From Axinella damicornis (taxonomy: Eukaryota; Porifera; Demospongiae; Axinellida; Axinellidae), in NCBI GenBank assembly GCA_963931865.1, contig OZ007510.1, forward strand, positions 10,698,993 through 10,762,992: a stretch of 64,000 nucleotides of DNA, given 5' to 3'. Of this stretch, positions 41,556 to 63,915 are shown one piece after another. The notes beneath the pieces were generated by a model that ran no database searches, was not told the origin of the DNA, and saw nothing but the letters and a program-made list of their open reading frames with translations. The first letter of the stretch is position 1. Every line of letters begins with the position of its first letter. Made by a program: the position numbers and the translations under genes.

Positions 41556-42069
41556 CTGGTTGAGTATGGGTCAGGTGAAATAATGGAAGAAAATGTACAG
41601 TATTAAATCCCTTGGTTTGAATAACTGATATAGTTTGCGAAAGTTATTAACCACTAAATGTTCAAAGCAGTGAATATACACATCATAATTATCGTAAATG
41701 CGATGGCAGTCTGTAAACAGGAAGTGACAAGCAAGCAACCCCTGTAAACAAACATATTCATGCATTTACAGGATCGTGCATATTGCGAGCTGAAGAGGTG
41801 GGGCCAATTGTTACGAATCTGGAAAAAACAGCCGAAACAATAGTCACAACGTCTGTGAAGTATATAAATCGTGGGAAAAGACTTTTTTCCTAGCGGTCAT
41901 CTCGAAGCATGAAGTTTCCAAATGCAGTGCATGTCCTGTTCTTGATAGCGTACCGTCCCCAATTATGGCCAGTCCCCTATTATGGCCACTTGCGTGTATT
42001 CGCGATTCCTGACTACTGGTAGATTCCCACATGCGCAGTATAACTAAGGTAATGTAGGGCACAAAAAAG
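41556..42069. other. Gap between NHL exon and LINE, nothing recognised
   Basis: No Cys/His-rich B-box or RING coding sequence on the minus strand. CCCCAATTATGGCCAGTCCC and CCCTATTATGGCCACTTGCG near 41960 form a short direct repeat. Confidence 0.4.
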
Positions 42070-44637
42070 TTGGTGTCAGCATTATTGCTCTCGGAGAAAT
42101 ATCGCCCTGAATCGGCAATCAAAGAGTTCACCCTAACTGGAGATCTAAAATGCAACATGCTCACAGACAACCCACTCTCCAACAAACTACGACAGTTACT
42201 ACACCAGTATGGACTCAGTCAGCTGATAGTGGAACCCACGAGGATCACCAGTGACTCCCAGACCCTCATTGACATCATTGCTACCAGTCACCCACAGAAC
42301 TACGAGAGATGTGGAATAATTCCGTGTAGCATCAGTGACCACTTGCTGGTTTTCGCTGAACAAACGATGCGTATCACCCCCCCTCCAGTTGAGACAATCA
42401 CTGTCCGATGTTACAATAAGTGCAACTGGCAGGCTCTCCTGGAGGATATGATGAACGCACCATGGCAAAGCATTGAGCAGTACAGTGATGTCGATTCTGC
42501 ATGGAATTGCTGGAAATCCATATTCCTCGAGGTACTTAGGAAGCACGCACCGGTTAAGACTTTCAGACCACGGAGACATCACCTCCCATATATAGATGAT
42601 GAAATACGGGAGCTGATGCGAGAACGGGACTGGATGCACCGTAAGTACATCAGGACCAAGGATCGGGATGTGTGGAATGCGTTCAAAAGTCTGAGGAATC
42701 TGACTGCTACCAGACTGAGAGAAGCCAAGAAAGCCCATTTTGCTACTGTATGCAGCAATACAAACCAACCGAAGAAAACGTGGATGGAACTCAACACCTT
42801 AATGGGGAAACAATACAGGCAGCCAATCCGAGCTATTTCAAACAATGATGGTGAGGTCATGAGTGACAAATGAATAGCAGAAGCATTCAATGAGTACTTT
42901 ACAGGTCTGTTTGCTGGCGACACCACTGTTAGAAGGCAGATGCAAGTGGGAAGCGCACAGTCAGAGGGGGTCTTTCAATTCTGTACAATTACAGCTGAGG
43001 ACACCCTGAAGGTGCTGCAATCCCTCGATGTGAACAAGGCCACTGGTCTGGACGGGATAACAGCAAAGTGTCTCCGTGTAGCAACACCTGCAATTGCTGG
43101 ATGCTTAAGCTACAGTATCTATTCAACCTGAGCTTGGCAGATGGTGTGTTCCCCAAGGATTGGAAAATTGCGAGGGTCACACCCACCTTTAAAGCTGGAA
43201 ACAGGTCAGACTTGAGTAACTACCGTCCAATCTCTATCTTGCCAGTAGTTGCTAAGGTACTTGAGCGACTGGTTTGTGGGCAGCTCCGCTCACACCTCAA
43301 CAAACACAGTCTACTGACAAGCTCTCAATCTGGACTCCGTCCTGGACACTCAACACAAGATCTAATACTCAAAGTGGTGGATGACTGGAGAGTGTCCATA
43401 GATAATGATGATATTGTGGGCTCCTTGTTCATAGACCTATCTAAAGCATTCGACTCAATACACCACCAACTCTTGCTGTCAAAACTGGATGGTGTGGGTG
43501 TCCATGGGGTTGAACTTGCCTGGTTTCAGAGTTACTTGTATGATCGTATGCAGTGTGTCAGCATTGGCAAAGCAAGATCCTCCTTTAGGCCAATCAGCAG
43601 TGGAGTCCCTCAGGGCTCAATCCTGGGCCCCCTATTGTTCATTGTGTTCATGAACAAGCTACCGGCCGTGATCATGTCTTGTGAGACTCAACTGTACGCG
43701 GATGATACCATTCTATACTGCCATGGGAGGACAGTTGACGAGGTGAGACAGAAGCTGACTGTGGCCTTCCAAACAGCCAACCAATGGTTCCAGGAAAACT
43801 GCCTTCAAGTAAACTTCAAGAAAACCCACACAATGTTCCTGGGAAGGAAGAGGAGACAATGTGAGCTTGAAGAGCCGCACATCGAGCATGATGGTCAGCC
43901 AATTAGGAATGAACGAACAGCAAAGTACCTTGGTGTGCTCATTGATGACAAACTCAATTGGAAGCAGCATATCGACAGTGTGGCTAAGAAAGTTGGCAGG
44001 AATCTCAGGAGAGCGAGTAAGCACCTGCCGATGAAGACAAGGAAGATACTGTTCAATGCAATAGTGCTCCCCCACCTGGACTACTGCTGTGTGGTATGGG
44101 CTAACTGTATCAAAGACTCCACAACTACGGCATGAGGATCATACTGCAAGTACCTGCGAGGTCTCCAAGCAGTATGTCGAGAGCAAAGCTCAGGTGGACA
44201 ACACTGGAGCAAAGAAGGGCCCTTCAACAGTTGAGAGTTGTGCATCACTGCATCCATGGAGCAGCTCCTGAGTATTTGCGGTCACTTTTCAGATGGCAAC
44301 CAGGGACAGTCCGCACACGAGGACAGCTCAAGCTATTCTTAAAGGCCCACAAAAGTGACATATACAGCAAATCATTCCAATACTCTGGAGCAAGGAACTG
44401 GAATCAGCTGCCAGATGCTATCAAGACCACCCGAAACCATTGTACCTTTACAAAACTAGTTAGAGGTCTCGTTGTCGGAAATTGATATTAATATTTTTGT
44501 ACACCCATCCTGTGTTTGTTTTTGTTTTATAGTGTTTTTGCTTTTACAACCTTGTAATATTCCTTATTGTGTATGCATTGTACATATCCGTGAATGTAGT
44601 GCCCCCCTCTTTTTTCTGTATAATTATGTATATATTA
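42070..44637 (+). mobile_element. Non-LTR retrotransposon (LINE), 5'-truncated and decayed
   Basis: Frame 42070-42873 carries the end of an apurinic-type endonuclease (EPTRITSDSQTLID, CSISDHLLVF) and the linker, ending in a TGA. The reverse transcriptase continues at 42880-43130 and, after a frame change, 43068-44135: YRPISILPVVAKVLERLV, DLSKAFDSI, SGVPQGSILGPLLF, the catalytic YADD, and AKYLGVLIDDKLNW. A C-terminal part follows in a third frame to 44485 (GARNWNQLPD). The motif set fits the CR1/L2/Jockey side of LINEs. The 3' part after 44485 is AT-rich without a clear poly(A) and ends where the cassette array begins. At least two frame breaks, so not functional. Confidence 0.9.
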
Positions 44638-47600
44638 CGAGGGACAACCGCACTCCTGGTAGCCATTGCAACGCCGCGGTTGCCTCGCCGCAGCGAAGCT
44701 AAATTATTGCAATTCGTTCCAATTAACGCACATGCCACGTGGCTCAGTCGATCGCGAGCAATGGCGACCAAAAGGAAGACAAGACAGCACTCACAACTTA
44801 GCCAGCACGGTGAGTTTTGGCATGTAAGCGTAAGTTAACGACAGCGATCACGGCTGTGTGGTCAGAATCTTCGTGTGCCTTTCCTAAGAACGGTACTGCC
44901 ACCGGAAGTCGGAGAGATCGCTCGAGCAATGGCGGCCAACGGCGAGACAAAAGCGCTCATATCTCCACCACCAAGGTGAGTTTTAGCACCAACTTTCATC
45001 ATTCAGGTCAGTGCATGATAGCGATCACGGCGGTGTAGTCAGAATCTCTGTAGGCCAATCCTAAGTACTCAAACATTATTTATATTATATTATATCGAGG
45101 GGCAACCGCACTCCTGGTAGCCGCGTTGCAACCGGTTGCAGCTCGACGATAGCGCATAGGTATTGCAACACATTCCAATTAACGCACATGCCACGTGAGG
45201 ACCATGAGCGCTCGCGTCGATCGATTGAGCTGAGTCAGCAATGGCGGCCCAAGGAGATCGAGAAGACAAGAAACTTGTTATACAGCGCTCACAACTTCGC
45301 CAGCACGGTGAGTTTTGGCATGTAAGCGTCAGTGAACGGCAGAAACTTCGCGTGCCTTTCCTAAGAACGGTACTGCCACCGGAAGTCGGAGAGAGCGCTC
45401 GAGCAATGGCGTCCACGGCGAGACAAAAGCGCTCATATCTCCACCACCAAGGTGAGTTTCAGCTCCAAAATTGTACGGTTGAGACAGTGCATGATAGCGA
45501 TCATGAAGGTGTAGTCAGAATCTTCGTAGGTCTTTCCAATCACTCGAACGAGTTATTTATATTATATTATATTAGATTCGAGGGGCAACCGCACTCCTGG
45601 TAGCCGCGATGCAACCGGTTGCAACTCGCTGGGTAGTCATAGTCTTTGTGGCAATGAAACTTTGAAAGTTGAAGAGAGCGCTCGAGCAATGGCGGCTGAA
45701 GGGAAGACAAAAGCACTCACAACTCCACTACCAAGATGAATTTCAGCAACAAAATTGTACGGTTGGGTCACTGCACGATAGTGATCATGAAGATTTAGTC
45801 AGAACCTTTGTAGATCCTTCCTGCAGGCTGGGAGGTTTTTTATTTCTTTATATTTGCATTATCGAGGGGCAACCGCACTCCTGGTAGCCGCGTTGCAACC
45901 GGTTGCAGCTAGCTCGACGATAGCGCAAGCTAGGTATGGCAACACATTCCAATTAACGCACATACCACGTGAGGACCATGAGCGCTCGCGTCGATCTATT
46001 GAGCTGAGTCAGCAATGGCGGCCCAAGGAGATCGAAAAGACACGAAACTTGTTATACAGCGCTCACAACTTCGCCAGCACGGTGAGTTTTGGCATGTAAG
46101 CGTCAGTGAACGGCAGAAACTTCGCGTGCCTTTGCTAAGAACGGTACTGCCACCGGAAGTCGGAGAGAGCGCTCGAGCAATGGCGTCCACGGCGAGACAA
46201 AAGCGCTCATATCTCCACCACCAAGGTGAGTTTCAGCACCAAAATTGTACGGTTGGGACAGTGCATGATAGCGATCATGAAGGTGTAGTCAGAATCTTCG
46301 TAGGCCATTCCTATCACTCGAACGAGTTATTTAATTACGCGGCACTTTATTTCCTATACCAGGAGTGTAATAGCGAGGGGCAACCGCACTCCTGGTAGCC
46401 GTTGCAACGCCGCGGTTGCTTCGCCGTAGCGAAGCTAAATTATTGCAATTCGTTCCAATTAACGCACATGCCACGTGGCTCAGTCGATCGCGAGCAATGG
46501 CGACCAAAAGGAAGACAAGACAGCACTCACAACTTAGCCAGCACGGTGAGTTTTGGCATGTAAGCGTCAGTTAACGACAGCGATCACGGCTGTGTGGTCA
46601 GAATCTTCGTGCGCCTTTCCTAAGAACGGTACTGCCACCGGAAGTCGGAGAGAGCGCTCGAGCAATGGCGGCCACGGCGAGACAAAATCGCTCATATCTC
46701 CACCACCAAGGTGAGTTTCAGCACCAAAATTGTACGGTTGGGACAGTGCATGATAGCGATCACGACGGTGTAGTCAGAATCTTTGTGCGCCATTCCTGTC
46801 ACTGGAACGAGTTATTTATTTACGCGGCACTTTATTTCCTATACCAGGAGTGTAACGAGGGGCAACCGCACTCCTGGTAGCCGCGATGCAACCGGTTGCA
46901 ACTCGCTGGGTGGTCATAGCACTCCTGGTAGCCGCGTTGCAACCGTTGCAACTCGCTGGACGCGCAACCGTTCGGTATTGCAGCTCATTCCAATTAACGC
47001 ACATGTCACGTGAGGACCATGCTCAGTCGTCGATCGATATGTCGAGTCAGCAATGGCGTCCAAAAGTAAGACAAGAGCTTATTACAGTGCTAACAACTTT
47101 GCCAGCACGGTGAGTTTTGGCATGTAAGCGTCAGTAAACGATAGCGATCATGGCTGTGTGGTCAGAATCTTTGTGGGGCCTTCATAAGACTGTACTGGCA
47201 ACCAACATCGAAGAGAGCGATCGAGCAATGGCGGCCGACGGTATGACAAAAGCGCTCATATCTCCACCACCAAGGTGAGTTTCAGCACAATTATTTTGAT
47301 TTTGTGTCACTGCATCATAGCGATCACGACGGTGTAGTCAGAATCTTTGTAGGCCATTCGGAAATAGTCAAACGTTTATTAATTATTTAGATTAATTACA
47401 TTACGCGGCACAATTTTTCCTATACCAGGAGTGTAACGAGGAGCAACCGCACTCCTGGTAGCCGCGATGCAACCGGTTGCAACTCGCTGGGTGGTCATAT
47501 AGTCTTTGTGGCAATGAAACTTTGAAAGTTGAAGAGAGTGCTTGAGCAATGGCGGCTGAAGGGAAGACAAAAGCACTCACAACTCCACTACCACGATGAA

Positions 47601-50600
47601 TTTCAGCAACAAAATTGTACGGTTGGGTCACTGCACGATAGTGATCATGAAGATGTAGTCAGAACCTTTGTAGGTCCTTCCTGCGGGCTGGGAGGTTTTT
47701 TATTTGTTTATATTTGCATTATTAGCGAGGGGCAACCGCACTCCTGGTAGCCGCGTTGCAACCCCGGTTGCGACTCGCCGTAGCGAAGCTAAATATTGCA
47801 ATATGTAGTCAGAACCTTTGTAGGTCCTTCCTGCGGGCTGGGAGGTTTTTTATTTGTTTATATTTGCATTATTAGCGAGGGGCAACCGCACTCCTGGTAG
47901 CCGTTGCAACTCCGCGGTTGCCTCGCAGTAGCGCAAGCTAATTATTGCAATTCGTTCCAATTAACGCACATGCCACGTGGCAACCACGCTCAGTCGAACG
48001 CTAGCAATGGCGACCAAAAGGAAGACAAGAAATTATAGCAGCGCTTACAACCTTGCGGCCAGCACGGTGAGTTTCGGTATGTAACCGTCAGTGAACAACA
48101 GCGATTACGGCTGTGAGGTCTGAATCTTTGTGGGCCCTTCGTATGACTGTACTGGCAACCAACGTCGAAGAGAACGATCGAGCAATGGCGGCCGACGGCA
48201 CGACAAAAGCGCTTGTATCTCCATCACCAAGGTGAGTTTCGCCACAATTATTGTGTGGTTGTGTCACTGCATGATAGCGATCACGATGGTGTAGTCAGAA
48301 TCTTTGTAGGCCTTTTCTGCGAGCTATGAGGTTTGATTATTTAATTACATTATTTACGCGGCACAATTTTTCCCCTACCAGGAGTGTAACGAGGGGCAAC
48401 CGCACTCCTGGTAGCCGCGTTGCAACCAGTTGCAGCTCGACGATAGCGCATAGGTATTGCAACACATTCCAATTAACGCACATGCCACGTGAGGACCATG
48501 AGCGCTCGCGTCGATCGATTGAGCTGAGTCAGCAATGGCGGCCCAAGGAGATCGAGAAGACAAGAAACTTGTTATACAGCGCTCACAACTTCGCCAGCAC
48601 GGTGAGTTTTGGCATGTAAGCGTCAGTGAACGGCAGAAACTTCGCGTGCCTTTCCTAAGAACGGTACTGCCACCGGAAGTCGGAGAGAGCGCTCGAGCAA
48701 TGGCGTCCACGGCGAGACAAAAGCGCTCATATCTCCACCACCAAGGTGAGTTTCAGCTCCAAAATTGTACGGTTGGGACAGTGCATGATAGCGATCATGA
48801 AGGTGTAGTCAGAATCTTCGTAGGCCATTCCTATCACTCGAACGAGTTATTTATATTATATTATATTAGATTACGCGGCACAATTTTTCCTATACCAGGA
48901 GTGTAACGAGGGGCAACCGCACTCCTGGTAGCCGCGTTACATCCCCCTGGTTGCGACTCGCCGTAGCGAATCTAAATATTGCAATTCGTTCCAATTAACG
49001 CACAGGCCACGTGGCAACCACGCTCAGTCGATCGCGAGCAATGGCGACCAAACGGACGACAAGACATTATTACAGCACTCACAACTTAGCCAGCACGGTG
49101 AGTTTTGGCATGTAAGCGTCAGTGAACGACAGCGATCATGGCCGTGTGGTCAGAATGTTCGCGTGCCTTTCCTAAGAACGGTACTGCCACCGGAAGTCGA
49201 TGGAGCGCTCGAGCAATGGCGGCCAACGGCGAGACAAAAGCGCTCATATCTCCACCACCAAGGTGAATTTCAGCACCAAAATTGTACGGTGAGGACAGTG
49301 CATGATAGCGATCACGACGGTGTAGTCAGAATCTTTGCAGGCCATTCGTAAGTAGTCAAACGTTAATTATTTAGTTTAGGTTAGATTATTTATTTACGCG
49401 GCACAATTTTTCCCCTACCAGGAGTGTAACGAGGGGCAACCGCACTCCTGGTAGCCGCGTTGCAACCGGTTGCAACTCGCTGGACGCGCAACCGTTCGGT
49501 ATTGCAGCTCATTCCAATCAACGCACATGTCACGTGAGGACCATGCTCAGTCGTCGATCAATATGTCGAGTCAGCAATGGCGTCCAAAAGTAAGACAAGA
49601 GCTTATTACAGTGCTAACAACTTTGCCAGCACGGTGAGTTTTGGCATGTAAGCGTCAGTCAACGATAGCGATCACGGCTGTGTGGTCAGAATCTTTGTGG
49701 GGCCTTCATAAGACTGTACTGGCAACCAACATCGAAGAGAGCAATCGAGCAATGGCGGGCGACGGTATGACAAAAGCGCTTGTATCTCTGCCACCAAGGT
49801 GAGTTACTGCACAATTATTTTGATTTTGTGTCACTGCATCTTAGCGATCACGACGGTGTAGTCAGAATCTTTGTAGGCCATTGCTAAGTAGTCAAACGTT
49901 ATTTACATTATTTACATTAGGTTGCATTATTTACGCGGCACAATTTTTCCCCTACCAGGAGTGTAAATACGAGGGGCAACCGCACTCCTGGTAGCCGCGA
50001 TGCAACCGGTAATCGCGCTGGTCGTGGTCGTGCAGAGAATTAACGCGAATGTCACGTGAGGACCACGTTTGGTGGATGGTGTCGGCAATGGCGTCCAAAG
50101 GGAAGACAAGAACTTATTACAGCGCTCACAACTTTGCCAGCACGGTGAGTTTCGGCATGTGAGCGTCAGTGAACGACAGCGATCACGGCCTTGTGGTCAG
50201 AATCTTTGTGGGGCCTTCGTATCAGCTGTACTGGCAACGAACTTCGAGCGATCGAGCAATGGCGGCCGACGACACCACAAAAGCGCTTGTATCTCCACCA
50301 CCATGGTGAATTTCAGCACCAAAATTGTGCGGTTGGGTTGCTGCATGGTAACAATCACGACGGTGTAGTCAGAATCTTTGTAGGCCATTCCTATCTCTCC
50401 AACGAGTTATTTATTATTTAATTATTTACGCGGCACAATTTTTCCCCTACCAGGAGTGTAATTACATTTCGCGGCACAATTTTTCCTATACCAGGAGTGT
50501 AACGAGGGGCAACCGCACTCCTGGTAGCCGTTGTTGCCTCGCCGTAGCGCAAGCTAATTATTGCAATTCGTTCCAATCAACGCACATGCAACGTGGCAAC

Positions 50601-51003
50601 CACGCTCAGTCGATCGCGAGCAATGGCGGCCAAAAGGAAGACAAGACATTATTACAGCACTTACAACTTAGCCAGCACGGTGAGTTTTGGCATGTAAGTG
50701 TCAGTGAACGACAGCGATCACGGCCGTGTGGTCAGAATCTTCGTGTGCTTTCCTGAGAACGGTACTGCCACCGGAAGTCGAAGAGAGCGCTCGAGCAATG
50801 GCGGTTAACGGCGAGACAAAAGCGTTCATATCTCAGCCACGGAGGTGAGTTTCAGCACCAACTTTCATCATTCAGGTCAGTGCTTGATAGCGATCATGGC
50901 GGTGTAGTCAGAATCTCTGTAGGCCAATCCTAAGTACCCAAACATTATTTATTACACTCCTGGTATAGGAAAAATTGTGCCGCGTAAATAATATAACATA
51001 ATA
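44638..51003 (+). repeat. Tandem array of promoter-like cassettes (family B)
   Basis: Units begin with GAGGGGCAACCGCACTCCTG near 44639, 45097, 45580, 45864, 46375, 46857, 47438, 47727, 47877, 48391, 48908, 49431, 49971 and 50504. Full units are 450-590 bp; those at 45580, 47438 and 47727 are short. A full unit holds: CCGGTTGCAACTCG-type head; ATTCCAATTAACGCACATG; an E-box CCACGTGG or CACGTGAG; GAGCAATGGCGNCC (module 1), followed ~60 nt later by CAGCACGGTGAGTTTTGGC; GCGATCACGGC and GTGGTCAGAATCTT; ACCGGAAGTCGGAGAGAGCG (ETS-like); a second GAGCAATGGCGGCC (module 2), then CACCAAGGTGAGTTTCAGC; GTAGTCAGAATC; and an AT-rich end with ACGCGGCACAATTTTTCC and CTACCAGGAGTG. Modules 1 and 2 are diverged copies of each other. 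The last unit is followed by an inverted end at 50950. Confidence 0.9.
45241..45603 (+). other. Open frame across a cassette unit, doubtful protein
   Basis: A 120-codon frame starts at the module 1 ATGGCG and runs through both splice-donor-like sites. The same frame is open at 46015-46398 and 48535-48906 (123-127 codons). Other units break it, and the translated residues around HGEFWHVSVSE simply read the GTGAGT motif, so I regard coding use as unlikely but not excluded. Confidence 0.2.
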
Positions 51004-51783: not shown

Positions 51784-52301
51784 TAAATAATGTTTGAGTA
51801 CTTAGGATTGGCCTACAGAGATTCTGACTACACCACCGTGATCGCTATCATGCACTGACCTGAATGATGAAAGTTGGTGCTGAAACTCACCTTGGTGGTG
51901 GAGATATGAGCGCTTTTGTCTCGCCGTTGGCCGCCATTGCTCGAGCGCTCTCTCGACTTCCGGTGGCAGTACCGTTCTTAGGAAAGGCACACGAAGATTC
52001 TGACCACACGGCCGTGATCGTTGTCGTTCACTGACGCATATATACCGAAACTCACCGTGCTGGCTAAGTTGTGAGTGCTGTAATAATGTCTTGTCTTACT
52101 TTTGCAGAGGCGGCGCCGCCGGTACGGCTGGTCCGGCTTTGGCCGGACCACTTTTCCAGCCGACCTGATTATAATATCACGTGCAGTGTAGTCAACGCAT
52201 AATCTACGCTTGATCTTATATGCAGACTCGGCAATGGCATCTGTTTCTCGTCCTAGTTGTTGGCCTACCATTGAAACTCAAGGTCTTTTCTTCCCCAAAA
52301 C

Positions 52302-52339
<38 letters not shown>

Positions 52340-52861
52340 CATTTATGCATTAGCAGGTTGGTGCAATGCAATGGTTACACAAATAGCTACATAAGCTAGT
52401 CTGGTGTGTAACCATTTTGATGCTACGAGAGCGCTTCCTCATCACTAAAAATACATGCGAAATTTTTTTTCCGCGCTTCGCGCGGACAGATTAGCACTTC
52501 GCGCCTCTGCCAACACACAAAGCGCTTCCGGGCACCGCCTTCTGCAGTGCGCTACGATAGTGGGCCGTACCACTTCATTTATGCCGCTGCCGCCCCTGTT
52601 TTGGTCGCGATCGACTTGAGCGTGGTTGCCACGTGGCATGTGCGTTAATTAGAACGTATTGCAATACTTAGCTTGCGCTACGGCAGGTTGCAACGCAGCT
52701 ACTTTATGAATGGTACTTGAGAGCACTCTAAATAATTTATCTTCCCTGTATATAGCTATCATGGTGATGTGTGATAATTGGAACGAACTGTCACACTTAG
52801 CTTGTGCTACCGTTTAACTGCGGCTACCAGGAGTGCGGTTGCCCCTCGTATTATGTTGGAT
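51784..52861 (-). repeat. Reverse-oriented cassette (family B), interrupted
   Basis: Both modules are readable on the minus strand: ACTCACCTTGGTGGTGGAGA and CCGCCATTGCTCGAGCGCTC, then CGACTTCCGGTGGCAGTACC, then AACTCACCGTGCTGGC. The unit is split by an insertion at 52105-52598 and resumes with GGTCGCGATCGACTTGAGCG and TGCCACGTGGCATGTGCGTT, ending in CTACCAGGAGTGCGGTTGCC at about 52855. Confidence 0.85.
52105..52598. mobile_element. hAT-like MITE inserted in a cassette
   Basis: 494 bp with imperfect inverted ends CAGAGGCGGCGCCGCC and GCCGCTGCCGCCCCTG (about 12 of 16 match). TTTTG is present at both borders (52100-52104, 52599-52603), and the cassette sequence is continuous once it is removed. 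CAGAGGCGG-type ends recall hAT elements, but hAT duplications are 8 bp, so the class is uncertain. It includes a T tract (52310-52335) and GCGCTTCGCGCGGAC hairpins. No transposase. Confidence 0.6.
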
Positions 52862-53455
52862 TATATTATCGAGGGGCAACCGCACTCCTGGTAGCCGCGA
52901 TTAACCATGCAGCTAAGTGTGATAGTTCTTTCCAGTTATCACACATCACGTGAGTACCATGACAGCTATATATAGGGATGATCAGAAATTATTTAGAGTG
53001 CTCTCAAGTAATAAAACCATTCATAGCCGCGTCGGTTGCGATTCGCCGTCGTAGCTCAAGCTAGTATTGTAATTCGTTCCAATTAACGCACATGCCACGT
53101 GGCAACCACGCTCAGTCGATCGCGAGCAATGGCGACCAAAAGGAAGACAAGACATTATTACAGCACTCACAACTTAGCCAGCACGGTGAGTTTCGGCATG
53201 AAAGCGTCAGTGAACGACAGCGATCACGGCCGTGTGGTCAGAATCTTTGTGGGGCCTTCGTAAGACTGTACTGGCAACCAACGTCAGAGAGCGATCGAGC
53301 AATGGCGGCCGACGGCACAACAAAAGCGCTTGTATCTCCACCACCAAGGTGAGTTTCAGCACCAAAATTGTACGGTTGGGACAGTGCATGATAGCGATCA
53401 TGAAGGTGTAGTCAGAATCTTCATACGCCATTCCTATCACTCGAACGAATTATTT
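52862..53455 (+). repeat. Forward cassette (family B), head-to-head with the reverse copy
   Basis: GAGGGGCAACCGCACTCCTG at 52863 begins a unit whose first ~160 bp mirror the end of the reverse copy (TTATTTAGAGTGCTCTCAAG and complement). It then carries ATTCCAATTAACGCACATGC, CCACGTGG, ATGGCGACC and CAGCACGGTGAGTTTCGGC, then a second ATGGCGGCC and CACCAAGGTGAGTTTCAGC. Confidence 0.85.
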
Positions 53456-53662
53456 ACATTATATTACATTACGCGGCACAATTTTCTCTATACCAGGAGT
53501 GTAATTACGCGGCACAATTTTTCCTATACCAGGAGTGTAACATTACGCGGCACAATTTTTCCCCTACCAGGAGTGTAACATTACATTACGCGGCACATTT
53601 TTCTCTATACCAGGAGTGTAACATAACGCGGCACAATTTTTCCCCTACCAGGAGTGTAACTT
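53456..53662 (+). repeat. Cassette end repeated five times
   Basis: ACGCGGCACAATTTTTCC followed by CTACCAGGAGTGTAA occurs five times in tandem, about 35-45 bp apart, with TTACATTA-type spacers. Only the terminal piece of the cassette has been multiplied. Confidence 0.9.
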
Positions 53663-61137: not shown

Positions 61138-63302
61138 CTGCAGATACCCATCCAAATATAATCTCCTTCACCCAATGCTCGATCTACCATTTGATCTTTC
61201 ATCAGTAGCTATAGCTAATGCTCTTGTTATCGGTTGCACCAGCTATAGCAATTGAAGAATGCTCTCAATCCAAATTAACTGCACTATTGTTTTATCTATG
61301 CACCATGAATTTGATACATTGCTACAAATTAATGATACTACAAACGTCTATTTACACACAACCTGGACTGTGGTTCAATGAGACATTTTATGTACACAGT
61401 CCAGTGGCAGTGGAAGATGTATGGTTCGGGAGGGAGGGGCTGAAGCATGGAGGCACATATAGCTAGCTACACAGCAGTTGATCAAATGATCGGAAATGTT
61501 TTCATGCATGATTTTCTCCTATCGGGAAGGCCTTTTATATCATCTCTGCCTATTTTTCACTCTTCTCTGTTTGCAAAATTAAACATGGGTTACATAGCTA
61601 TTAGTCTGACTGCTAGTCTGCTACATGTACACAAACTGCTGCTAAGGGCGCCGCATTTTTGCCACCCTTCCGCATCCGTGTATATTGTCAACGGAAACCG
61701 AAGAACAGAAAAAACGGGGTAGGCCTGGGAACAAGGCTAGTACATACTATCATGAGCACATAAGTGACCAGCAGCAGAAATGACCAAAACTTTCTTTATT
61801 ATTCTTGCTTTGAGCATCTTAATTCCACCATCAACTATGCATGGAAAGACAAACACCATGTCTAGTAACATTGAATCTGAGCAAGAACAGACAAGCAGAA
61901 ACTTCGCTAACGATGTTGTAAATGATGTTGTCAACATTTTATGGATGTGCATGAGCTTTACTCAAGTCACTGCCTTCCCTTTTCATGTGGAGGGTACGTA
62001 TGCCGGTACCACGTCTATCGAGCTAGACCAACAACTATGGTCCTACAATGTGTATAATAGTCCAACCTTGATGGAGTCTCCTTAGCACCTTAGAATGTGG
62101 TAGGTAGCTATACCTCTCACCACACAGGAAATTGTAGGCGGAGTGAACTGAAAGGCAAAGAGGTACAGCCTAGCAGATTTCATTAGCAATCATGTCTATA
62201 GTTGACCAATCAGATTCACTGGTCCAATTTGGACCAGTACTTCCTTGACTACTATATTATGTTGGCATAGAACATCCCTCCTATGTACATGTACATCCGT
62301 GAAGAGTCAACTGCTCCATATGTGAAAACTTGTTTACATTGTGAGTACAAGAATGCTCTATCAGTAGTTGTACTTGTGGTGTGACCAATTCAACATGAGG
62401 TTCAGCAAAATATGTACAAGTAACACAAAGTAACTACAGTCATGTCACATAGCTATGTGGTTATGCAGGCCAAAACTCCTGAGGCTAAATGAGAGCCACT
62501 TTGGCTGTGCATTTGTTTCCCTCCTAACATTTTCACGATATTTTGGACTCTCTTTTCAAAGTATTTTTCACCTTTCCCTCACGGTACTCGATCTCATGCC
62601 TGTATTTAGCTTTAGATGGAGTTTACTACCCGCTTTGGGCTGCATTCCCAAACAACCCGGGGCTGTGTAACTTCTGACCAACCCTGTGGCCAGATCTTTC
62701 TGTTAAATGGCCAGACTCTAAGATGCATGATAGACCAAGTGGTAGGACTGGTTCATCTTAAGGCTTGACCAGCTACGATAGCTGTAATCACAGTAGTAGT
62801 ACTGCATAATTATATGGTGCAAGGGCATGGTCTTCTGAAGAGGGGTGGACTTGAGAAAGGGGTGTATCATGTGTGTACATATAAGCTATTCATATACTAG
62901 TTGCTTAGCAGTGGTATTCAGAAGGGGTGTGTGATGTCAACGTCAATGATCCATGATAGCTAGCTCCATGCATGTTATGAGAAATGGTCCATGGGGTGAT
63001 GGATGAACTTACTGATCCAAGTAGCTACATTGCCATTCAGAAGCGGGAATGAGACTAAGTGTACCCAGTCAATCAAACTAGGCCATTCCCTCATTGTGCA
63101 CGGGAAGCGTCGGCGGAGTGAACTCAAAGGTGGTCTAGCTCGATATATAGGTGGTCGAAGGTGGTCTAGATCTATAGCAGAAGTCATTAGTATTCAACTA
63201 TTCATGACTAGTTTGACAAATCAGATTCATTGGTCCGATTATGGACCAGTATACAACTGGCACATTACAGCTTCCATGCAGCTGCACTTAAAAGGTACGT
63301 AC
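61138..63302. other. No gene recognised; contains a ~110 bp direct duplication
   Basis: Related blocks at about 62130-62245 and 63105-63260 share CGGAGTGAACT-AAAGG, AGATTCA-TGGTCC and GGACCAGTA. A GGCCTGGGAACAAGGCTAG end at 61720-61740 resembles a MITE right end without a clear partner. A 71-codon frame at 62455 is Leu/Phe-rich but unrecognised. Confidence 0.4.
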
Positions 63303-63915
63303 GTAAGGGGCAACCGCACTCCTGGTACATGTAGCCGTTGCAACCCCGCGTTGCCTCGCCGTAGCGCAAACTAATTATTGCAATTCGTTCCAATTAACGC
63401 ACATGCCACGTGGCAACCGCGCTCAGTCGATCGCGAGCAATGGCGGCCAAAAGGAAGACAAGACATTATTACAGCACTTACGACTTAGCCAGCACGGTGA
63501 GTTTTGGCATGCAAGTGTCAGTGAACGACAGCGATCACGGCCGTGTGGTCAGAATCTTCGTGTGCCTTCCTGAGAACGGTACTGCCACCGGAAGTCAAAG
63601 AGAGCGCTCGAGCAATGGCGGCCAACGGCGAGACAAAAGCGCTCATATCTCAGCCACCAAGGTGAGTTTCAGCACCAACTTTCATCATTCAGGTCAGTGC
63701 TTGATAGCGATCACGGCGGTGTAGTCAGAAAATCTATGTAGGCCAATCCTAAGTACTCGAACATTATATTAATTACGCGGCACAATTTTTCGCCTACCAG
63801 GAGTGTAATTACACGGCACAATTTTTCCCCTACCAGGAGTGTAATATGTTATATTGGATTATATTATATTATATTACGCGGCACAATTTTTCCCCTACCA
63901 GGAGTGTAACTTCAT
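63303..63915 (+). repeat. Isolated cassette of family B, with triplicated end
   Basis: AAGGGGCAACCGCACTCCTG starts the unit, followed by ATTCCAATTAACGCACATGC, CCACGTGG, ATGGCGGCC, CAGCACGGTGAGTTTTGGC, CCACCGGAAGTC, a second ATGGCGGCC, CACCAAGGTGAGTTTCAGC, and three tandem copies of ACGCGGCACAATTTTTC with CTACCAGGAGTG (63775-63910). Lies about 10 kb from the main blocks, so the cassette can move or be copied. Confidence 0.88.

Follow-up and report, generated by a model that had tools for sequence, protein, structure and literature searches.

A tandem array in the sponge Axinella damicornis, located in the 64,000-nucleotide stretch analysed here (the window), is almost certainly composed of non-autonomous copies, with internal deletions, of a Helitron2-like transposon. 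The units carry a CpG-rich block of two related halves (A and B) which we think probably acts as a promoter. Taken jointly, the transposon identity and the promoter role make up the account that we favour with moderate confidence.

We inspected the array base by base. It occupies positions 44638–50987 on the forward strand and consists of 14 head-to-tail units: 11 with halves A and B, two with a B-like half alone and one truncated. Half A has the order E-box, CAATGGCG, donor; half B often has the order ETS site, CAATGGCG, donor. The first unit (+, approximately 44638–45091) opens with a terminal segment, S, followed by half A (E-box at 44736, CAATGGCG at 44759, donor near 44808) and half B (ETS at 44902, CAATGGCG at 44927, donor near 44974). 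The B-only units lie at 45575–45858, which is of a type of ∼286 bp, and at 47434–47721, both on the forward strand and both with the GT of the donor lost; the truncated unit (+) occupies 47722–47871. The right end of the array is a copy of another terminal segment, r, at 50952–50987, which is inverted (− strand) relative to its usual direct orientation. The initial annotation had placed about fourteen units between 44638 and 51003, with the motif order repeated twice in each. The number of units and the left limit are confirmed by the 14 unit starts found, the right limit is corrected to 50987, and the doubled order is present in 11 of the 14 units but not in the two B-only units or the truncated one.

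Separate copies follow in the same window. One with approximate ends at 51790–52852 has the opposite orientation (−) and is interrupted by other sequence; a longer single-unit variant at 52870–53659 (+) ends in five r termini in tandem; and a single unit at 63304–63909 (+) ends in three. The last of these served as the reference for alignment of the halves (A, 63382–63556; B, 63557–63741). Elsewhere in the genome, the B-only unit of ∼286 bp also makes up separate tandem arrays at high copy number (for example, C5:18004644–18007579). A LINE-type reverse transcriptase with two long ORFs (42058–44480) adjoins the left side of the array, and a 29-bp minisatellite of the TCCGCCTCCACTGCTGCTCCCCGATTGCG type is found on both strands at window positions 2045, 4384, 22416, 35136 and 54144. 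A known structured RNA was rejected as an explanation of the array, because the sole Rfam match in the window falls outside it. This match, at 62297–62829 (−), is a partial one to the eukaryotic LSU rRNA family and is probably a displaced fragment.

A search of genomic DNA recovered the array unit both singly and in arrays across the 226-Mb genome; the search scores the best candidates only, so the resulting lists of copies are lower bounds. Copies elsewhere had been suspected of being mobile, and the units do prove to be copies of a Helitron-type mobile element found genome-wide. One 25-nt terminus has 3,772 exact occurrences, 1,915 on one strand and 1,857 on the other, with none for the reversed control. 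The first 100 of the 3,772 places listed all fall on contig C1, where they group into 34 clusters on the same strand, of up to 22 places each. A copy opens with CGAGGGGCAACCGCACTCCTGGTAG (S) and closes with TTACGCGGCACAATTTTTCC..TACCAGGAGTGTAA (r), the latter present once or several times. The two ends share a 12-bp inverted repeat, CACTCCTGGTAG/CTACCAGGAGTG, positioned at unequal distances: 3 nt from the 5' end of the element and 13 nt from its 3' end. The 36-bp r terminus occurs in short tandems of two to five, as at 53466–53660, at 63770–63909 and at many other loci, which resemble extra 5' termini of the element. In the oriented loci, an exact r end precedes S in 38 of 154 S copies.

No target-site duplication accompanies insertion: the joined flanks match empty sites elsewhere with a clean junction in three pairs (L013/L034, L029/L028 and L042/L041), and several further pairs are gapped or ambiguous. 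Insertion targets were read from a boundary table of 43 rows, one of which (L027) has no r match; 30 of the remaining 42 were used, and the 12 left out extended into other copies or up to the edge of the locus. In unit orientation, the 30 targets are T|T in 11 cases, T|C in seven, A|T in six and other dinucleotides in six, with a few rows (such as L016 and L036) that may pair the ends of neighbouring copies. A hairpin stem of at least 5 is present in 109 of 127 r copies versus 35 expected from shuffled flanks, a count that comes from just 12 variants with weak energies (−0.2 to −2.0). At the 3' side, 12 of 70 distinct ends were folded without a shuffle control; each has a stem (−5.6 to −13.3), and the 3' inverted repeat sits inside this stem-loop.

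The autonomous partner was found with the Helitron_like_N profile, which has 53 matches in the genome. One subgroup comprises five members (model positions 83–191), on contigs C1, C12, C13, C14 and C8, and the upstream side was inspected for these five and for L057, a Helitron from a different subgroup; a second control, L058, is largely N and was left out. Each of the five has A/B units upstream of the Rep-Hel gene and antisense to it, with a leader of 350–849 bp in between. In L057, the 2.4 kb preceding its long ORF contain no A/B unit. The gene on C12 is an intact ORF of 2,125 amino acids (L059:155–6532) encoding Rep, PIF1 helicase and OTU domains (Pfam PF14214, 1.6e-17; PF05970, 1.8e-27), with HWH and YLAKY motifs recognised by eye; no endonuclease domain was detected in it by the Pfam scan. 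Over its helicase part, the protein has a match to Helraiser (7lcc), with plain PIF1 helicases scoring higher. The N-terminus of the Rep-Hel protein contains tandem GRPEGTSQAAGYxVSG-like repeats (Pfam DUF5568), which vary among copies and look AT-hook-like.

Read in the Rep-Hel sense, the element runs from r (the 5' end) through B, A, the leader and the Rep-Hel-OTU gene to a 3' end with the E-box and S, and its ends are TTACAC.. and ..CCCCTCG. The 3' end is known from the C12 copy alone, where the S terminus lies past the gene at L050:2658 and is followed by one more unit ending at L052:129; S was not found in the stretches examined past the C1 and C14 genes. The short unit equals the autonomous element minus its middle. 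The part of a normal unit from the E-box to S (L052:26–132) aligns at 71% with the 3' end of the C12 element (L050:2572–2661), which identifies the E-box before A as part of the element's 3' end. As to strand, the terminal geometry matches the Rep-Hel strand and the T|T or T|C target matches the unit strand; in some Helitron2, the orientation of Rep-Hel is reversed (PMC3627910).

The motifs of the A/B block exceed shuffled expectation, as a scan proposed in the initial annotation reveals. The forward strand of the array contains 24 copies of CAATGGCG (mean 0.13, maximum 3 in 300 dinucleotide shuffles), 19 of GGTGAGTTT (mean 0.03, maximum 1), seven of CCGGAAGT (mean 0.07, maximum 1) and 10 of CACGTG (mean 2.39, maximum 8). 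Ordered modules consisting of an E-box or ETS site, CAATGGCG and GGTGAGTT number 16, versus zero in each of the 300 shuffles. Since the copies share descent, the figure for one unit is fairer: the unit at 63302–63770 has two ordered modules, with none in 3000 shuffles, while its CACGTG count is unremarkable, being reached by 19% of shuffles. The motifs used in these tests were picked after inspection of the sequence. We take CAATGGCG to be a putative YY1-type motif, and the ETS and E-box labels likewise denote putative sites. An E-box or ETS site had been claimed for every repeat of the order; the E-box is exact in 10 of 11 A halves of the array and the ETS site in 7 of 13 B halves. The donor had been described as preceded by AAG. 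The sequence GGTGAGT is indeed present in 20 of the 24 donors in the array, but the A halves read ACG|GTGAGT; of the other donors, two are GGTGAATTT and two, in the B-only units, are GATGAATTT, in which the GT is lost.

Conservation was measured on 127 distinct A rows and 132 distinct B rows. The change rate of CAATGGCG falls in the lowest 8% (A) and 6% (B) of windows and that of the donor in the lowest 22% (A) and 6% (B), while the E-box (48%) and ETS site (33%) are ordinary. The copies are highly alike, most alignment columns reaching 90% or more, and the within-copy conservation of CAATGGCG and the donor is only modest. The two halves differ from each other by indels within the exon, yet agree at CGAGCAATGGCG, GGTGAGTTT and a 40-bp block past GGTGAGTTT, of which the A version contains the CACGGCCGTG palindrome. 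Exon measures were taken from rows with both the ATG and the donor, which were 107 of 127 in A and 103 of 132 in B. The frame varies, with exons commonly 57 or 49 nt long in A and 47 or 46 nt long in B. The change rates of the three codon positions (in order, 3.37, 2.37 and 2.53 in A; 3.06, 1.88 and 2.53 in B) are not coding-like, and a stop lies inside the exon in 12 of 107 A rows and 0 of 103 B rows. A conserved coding first exon is not supported, as the frame differs among common alleles.

The autonomous copies vary in the same motifs. In the A half adjoining the gene, CAATGGCG is exact on C1 and C8, one base off on C14 and gone on C12 and C13; C14 has also lost GTGAGT, both in this half and in its B halves. 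CACGTG occurs within the first 160 bp of the leader in three of the five copies (C12, C8 and C14). By eye, GGTGAG sites are present together with CACGTG in the Rep-Hel leaders at L049, L053 and L056, so splicing may occur in the 5' leader of the inward transcript too.

The array stands out by its CpG content. The observed/expected ratio is 1.14 in the array, whereas 14 other pieces of the window give 0.36–0.59, the neighbouring LINE gives 0.42 and a TRIM-NHL exon 0.30. The same contrast is seen inside the five autonomous copies: 1.16–1.21 in the units, 0.69–1.07 in the leader and 0.33–0.48 in the gene (the whole gene on C12, part of it in the other four). TpG+CpA rises in these copies from 1.08–1.15 to 1.33–1.40 as CpG drops. 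The 3' non-coding part of the C12 element is low in CpG as well (0.51), the S part is likewise CpG-rich (1.17), and 14% of 228 stretches of 500 bp outside the units reach 1.0 or above. Because the block and the gene of one element should be similar in age, the contrast goes beyond what youth alone would produce.

The CpG contrast and the head-to-head position of the block relative to Rep-Hel in all five copies lend support to the promoter reading. Other observations weigh against it: the frame is not kept, the ETS site or the donor is missing in some lineages, and the E-box belongs to the element's 3' part. The module of promoter and first exon proposed in the initial annotation is plausible, with no support for a conserved coding exon, and the E-box that had been read as the start of the promoter order turns out to lie in the 3'-terminal part of the element, though CACGTG does occur in three of the five leaders. 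The A/B block probably constitutes a divergent promoter region whose inward side would serve Rep-Hel. From its outward side, an antisense transcript could start with a short first exon, and the 5' splice site could join this exon to exons of the flanking host DNA; such outward spliced antisense transcripts are a tentative prediction. Copies might then switch on neighbouring DNA where they land. The array itself joins the 3' end of the element (S, ∼100–200 bp, with the E-box) to its 5' region (A, B, then r), and the head-to-tail copies probably arose by rolling-circle replication or from circular intermediates, copied, we suppose, by the Rep-PIF1-OTU protein of autonomous copies.

Several alternatives bear on the function of the block. 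The motifs may be passengers of the same Helitron-type element, present by chance in a few source copies and multiplied by tandem and dispersed amplification, with no promoter activity. The near-identity of copies, most columns being 90% or more alike, is what this would produce, as is the failure of frame, ETS site and donor to be retained in every lineage. It accounts poorly for the difference in CpG between block and gene within the same elements, for motifs common to the diverged halves A and B, and for the identical position of the block in five of five autonomous copies, and we consider it possible but unlikely. Still less probable is a purely replicative role, in which the conserved blocks would serve Rep binding and hairpin formation and not transcription: terminal hairpins are able to form and the 40-bp block past the donor, with the CACGGCCGTG palindrome in A, is conserved between the halves, but A and B lie inside the element, not at its ends, and the high CpG and the promoter-like motif order would be left unexplained.

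The block could also have been captured: a host promoter with its first exon, which the Helitron took up in reverse orientation and which was later doubled. Helitrons are known to capture genes (PMC5148889, PMC7492417), and the motif order is like that of a short-first-exon promoter. Against this, no host source was found in a genome search which covers the best candidates only, all of them from the repeat family, and the exon frame is not conserved. We regard capture as an unlikely origin, more so than the passenger explanation; it would be compatible with a present-day promoter role. The tandem order and the motif reading of the initial annotation would also suit a satellite that stands on its own, or a group of genuine housekeeping first exons with no relation to any transposon, an explanation ruled out for practical purposes by the single copies with fixed ends, the duplication-free empty sites, the 3,772 dispersed termini and the autonomous partner.

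The array links a satellite-like tandem repeat with its autonomous rolling-circle transposon in the same genome, and the two ends of that transposon form the repeat unit. Should the block be active as a divergent promoter, it would amount to a DNA-transposon equivalent of the L1 antisense promoter and would supply portable promoters and 5' splice sites by the thousand. The fullest form of this idea is a rolling-circle transposon with a divergent CpG-island promoter and outward antisense first exons, arisen independently of L1, which seeded thousands of derivatives, some of them driving host genes; we hold it to be speculative and rather doubtful.

Membership of the Helitron superfamily is well supported by the protein, the ends and the missing target-site duplication. 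Canonical Helitron1 is rejected, as the 5' TC and 3' CTRR ends are lacking and targets are mostly not A|T (6 of 30), and so is a strict Helentron, as the endonuclease domain is absent from the Rep-Hel protein. Helitron2 appears to be the closest group. It is described with terminal inverted repeats of 8–15 bp, the 5' copy 0–2 bp and the 3' copy ∼20–30 bp from the end (PMC3627910). The Axinella element shares with it the Rep-PIF1 protein, short asymmetric terminal inverted repeats with the 5' one near the end (here at 3 nt), a T at the 5' end, the lack of target-site duplications and T-rich insertion sites (PMC3627910). It differs in its 3' inverted repeat, which lies 13 bp from the end in place of ∼20–30 and is enclosed by a predicted stem, whereas the stem of Helitron2 lies beyond the repeat, and in the promoter-like A/B block (PMC3627910). 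With Helentrons and their HINE/DINE-1 derivatives it has in common subterminal inverted repeats that lie 2–4 nt from the 5' end, deletion derivatives that are non-autonomous and in some cases contain tandem repeats, no target-site duplication, T-rich targets and an OTU domain, which is occasionally present there; unlike in Helentrons, the Rep-Hel protein has no endonuclease domain (PMC4067079).

The Cg_HINE arrays of the Pacific oyster are another case of satellite-like tandem repeats dispersed by non-autonomous elements of Helitron type (PMC7492417). There the repeats lie between two end modules and no autonomous partner could be linked to them, whereas here each unit consists of both element ends and the partner was found (PMC7492417). 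Several 5' termini in a row, and head-to-tail copies explained by circular intermediates, are reported for Helitrons of Fusarium and its relatives (PMC5148889), where plant centromeric Helitrons are cited as a further tandem or multi-terminus case; the scale here is far larger, with arrays of up to 22 exact termini among the first 100 places listed. The unusual feature relative to known kinds of Helitron is the CpG-rich divergent block. In the literature searched, mostly outside subscription journals, we recognised no description of an antisense, bidirectional or first-exon promoter in a Helitron. The nearest likeness in layout is with L1. The human L1 antisense promoter is YY1-enriched and yields chimeric spliced transcripts (PMC4908685), and antisense activity has been measured for the promoter monomers of mouse L1, which contain a putative YY1 motif (PMC9022269). 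By analogy, the Axinella block resembles the human L1 antisense promoter/ORF0 in its position at the 5' end, its YY1-type motif and its outward antisense direction (PMC4908685), and the mouse monomers in its tandem promoter-like units (PMC9022269). L1 is a retrotransposon with measured transcripts, while the likeness drawn here is one of layout, read from the sequence alone, and implies no kinship; that layout, a promoter-like block antisense to the element gene, is found in five of five autonomous copies.
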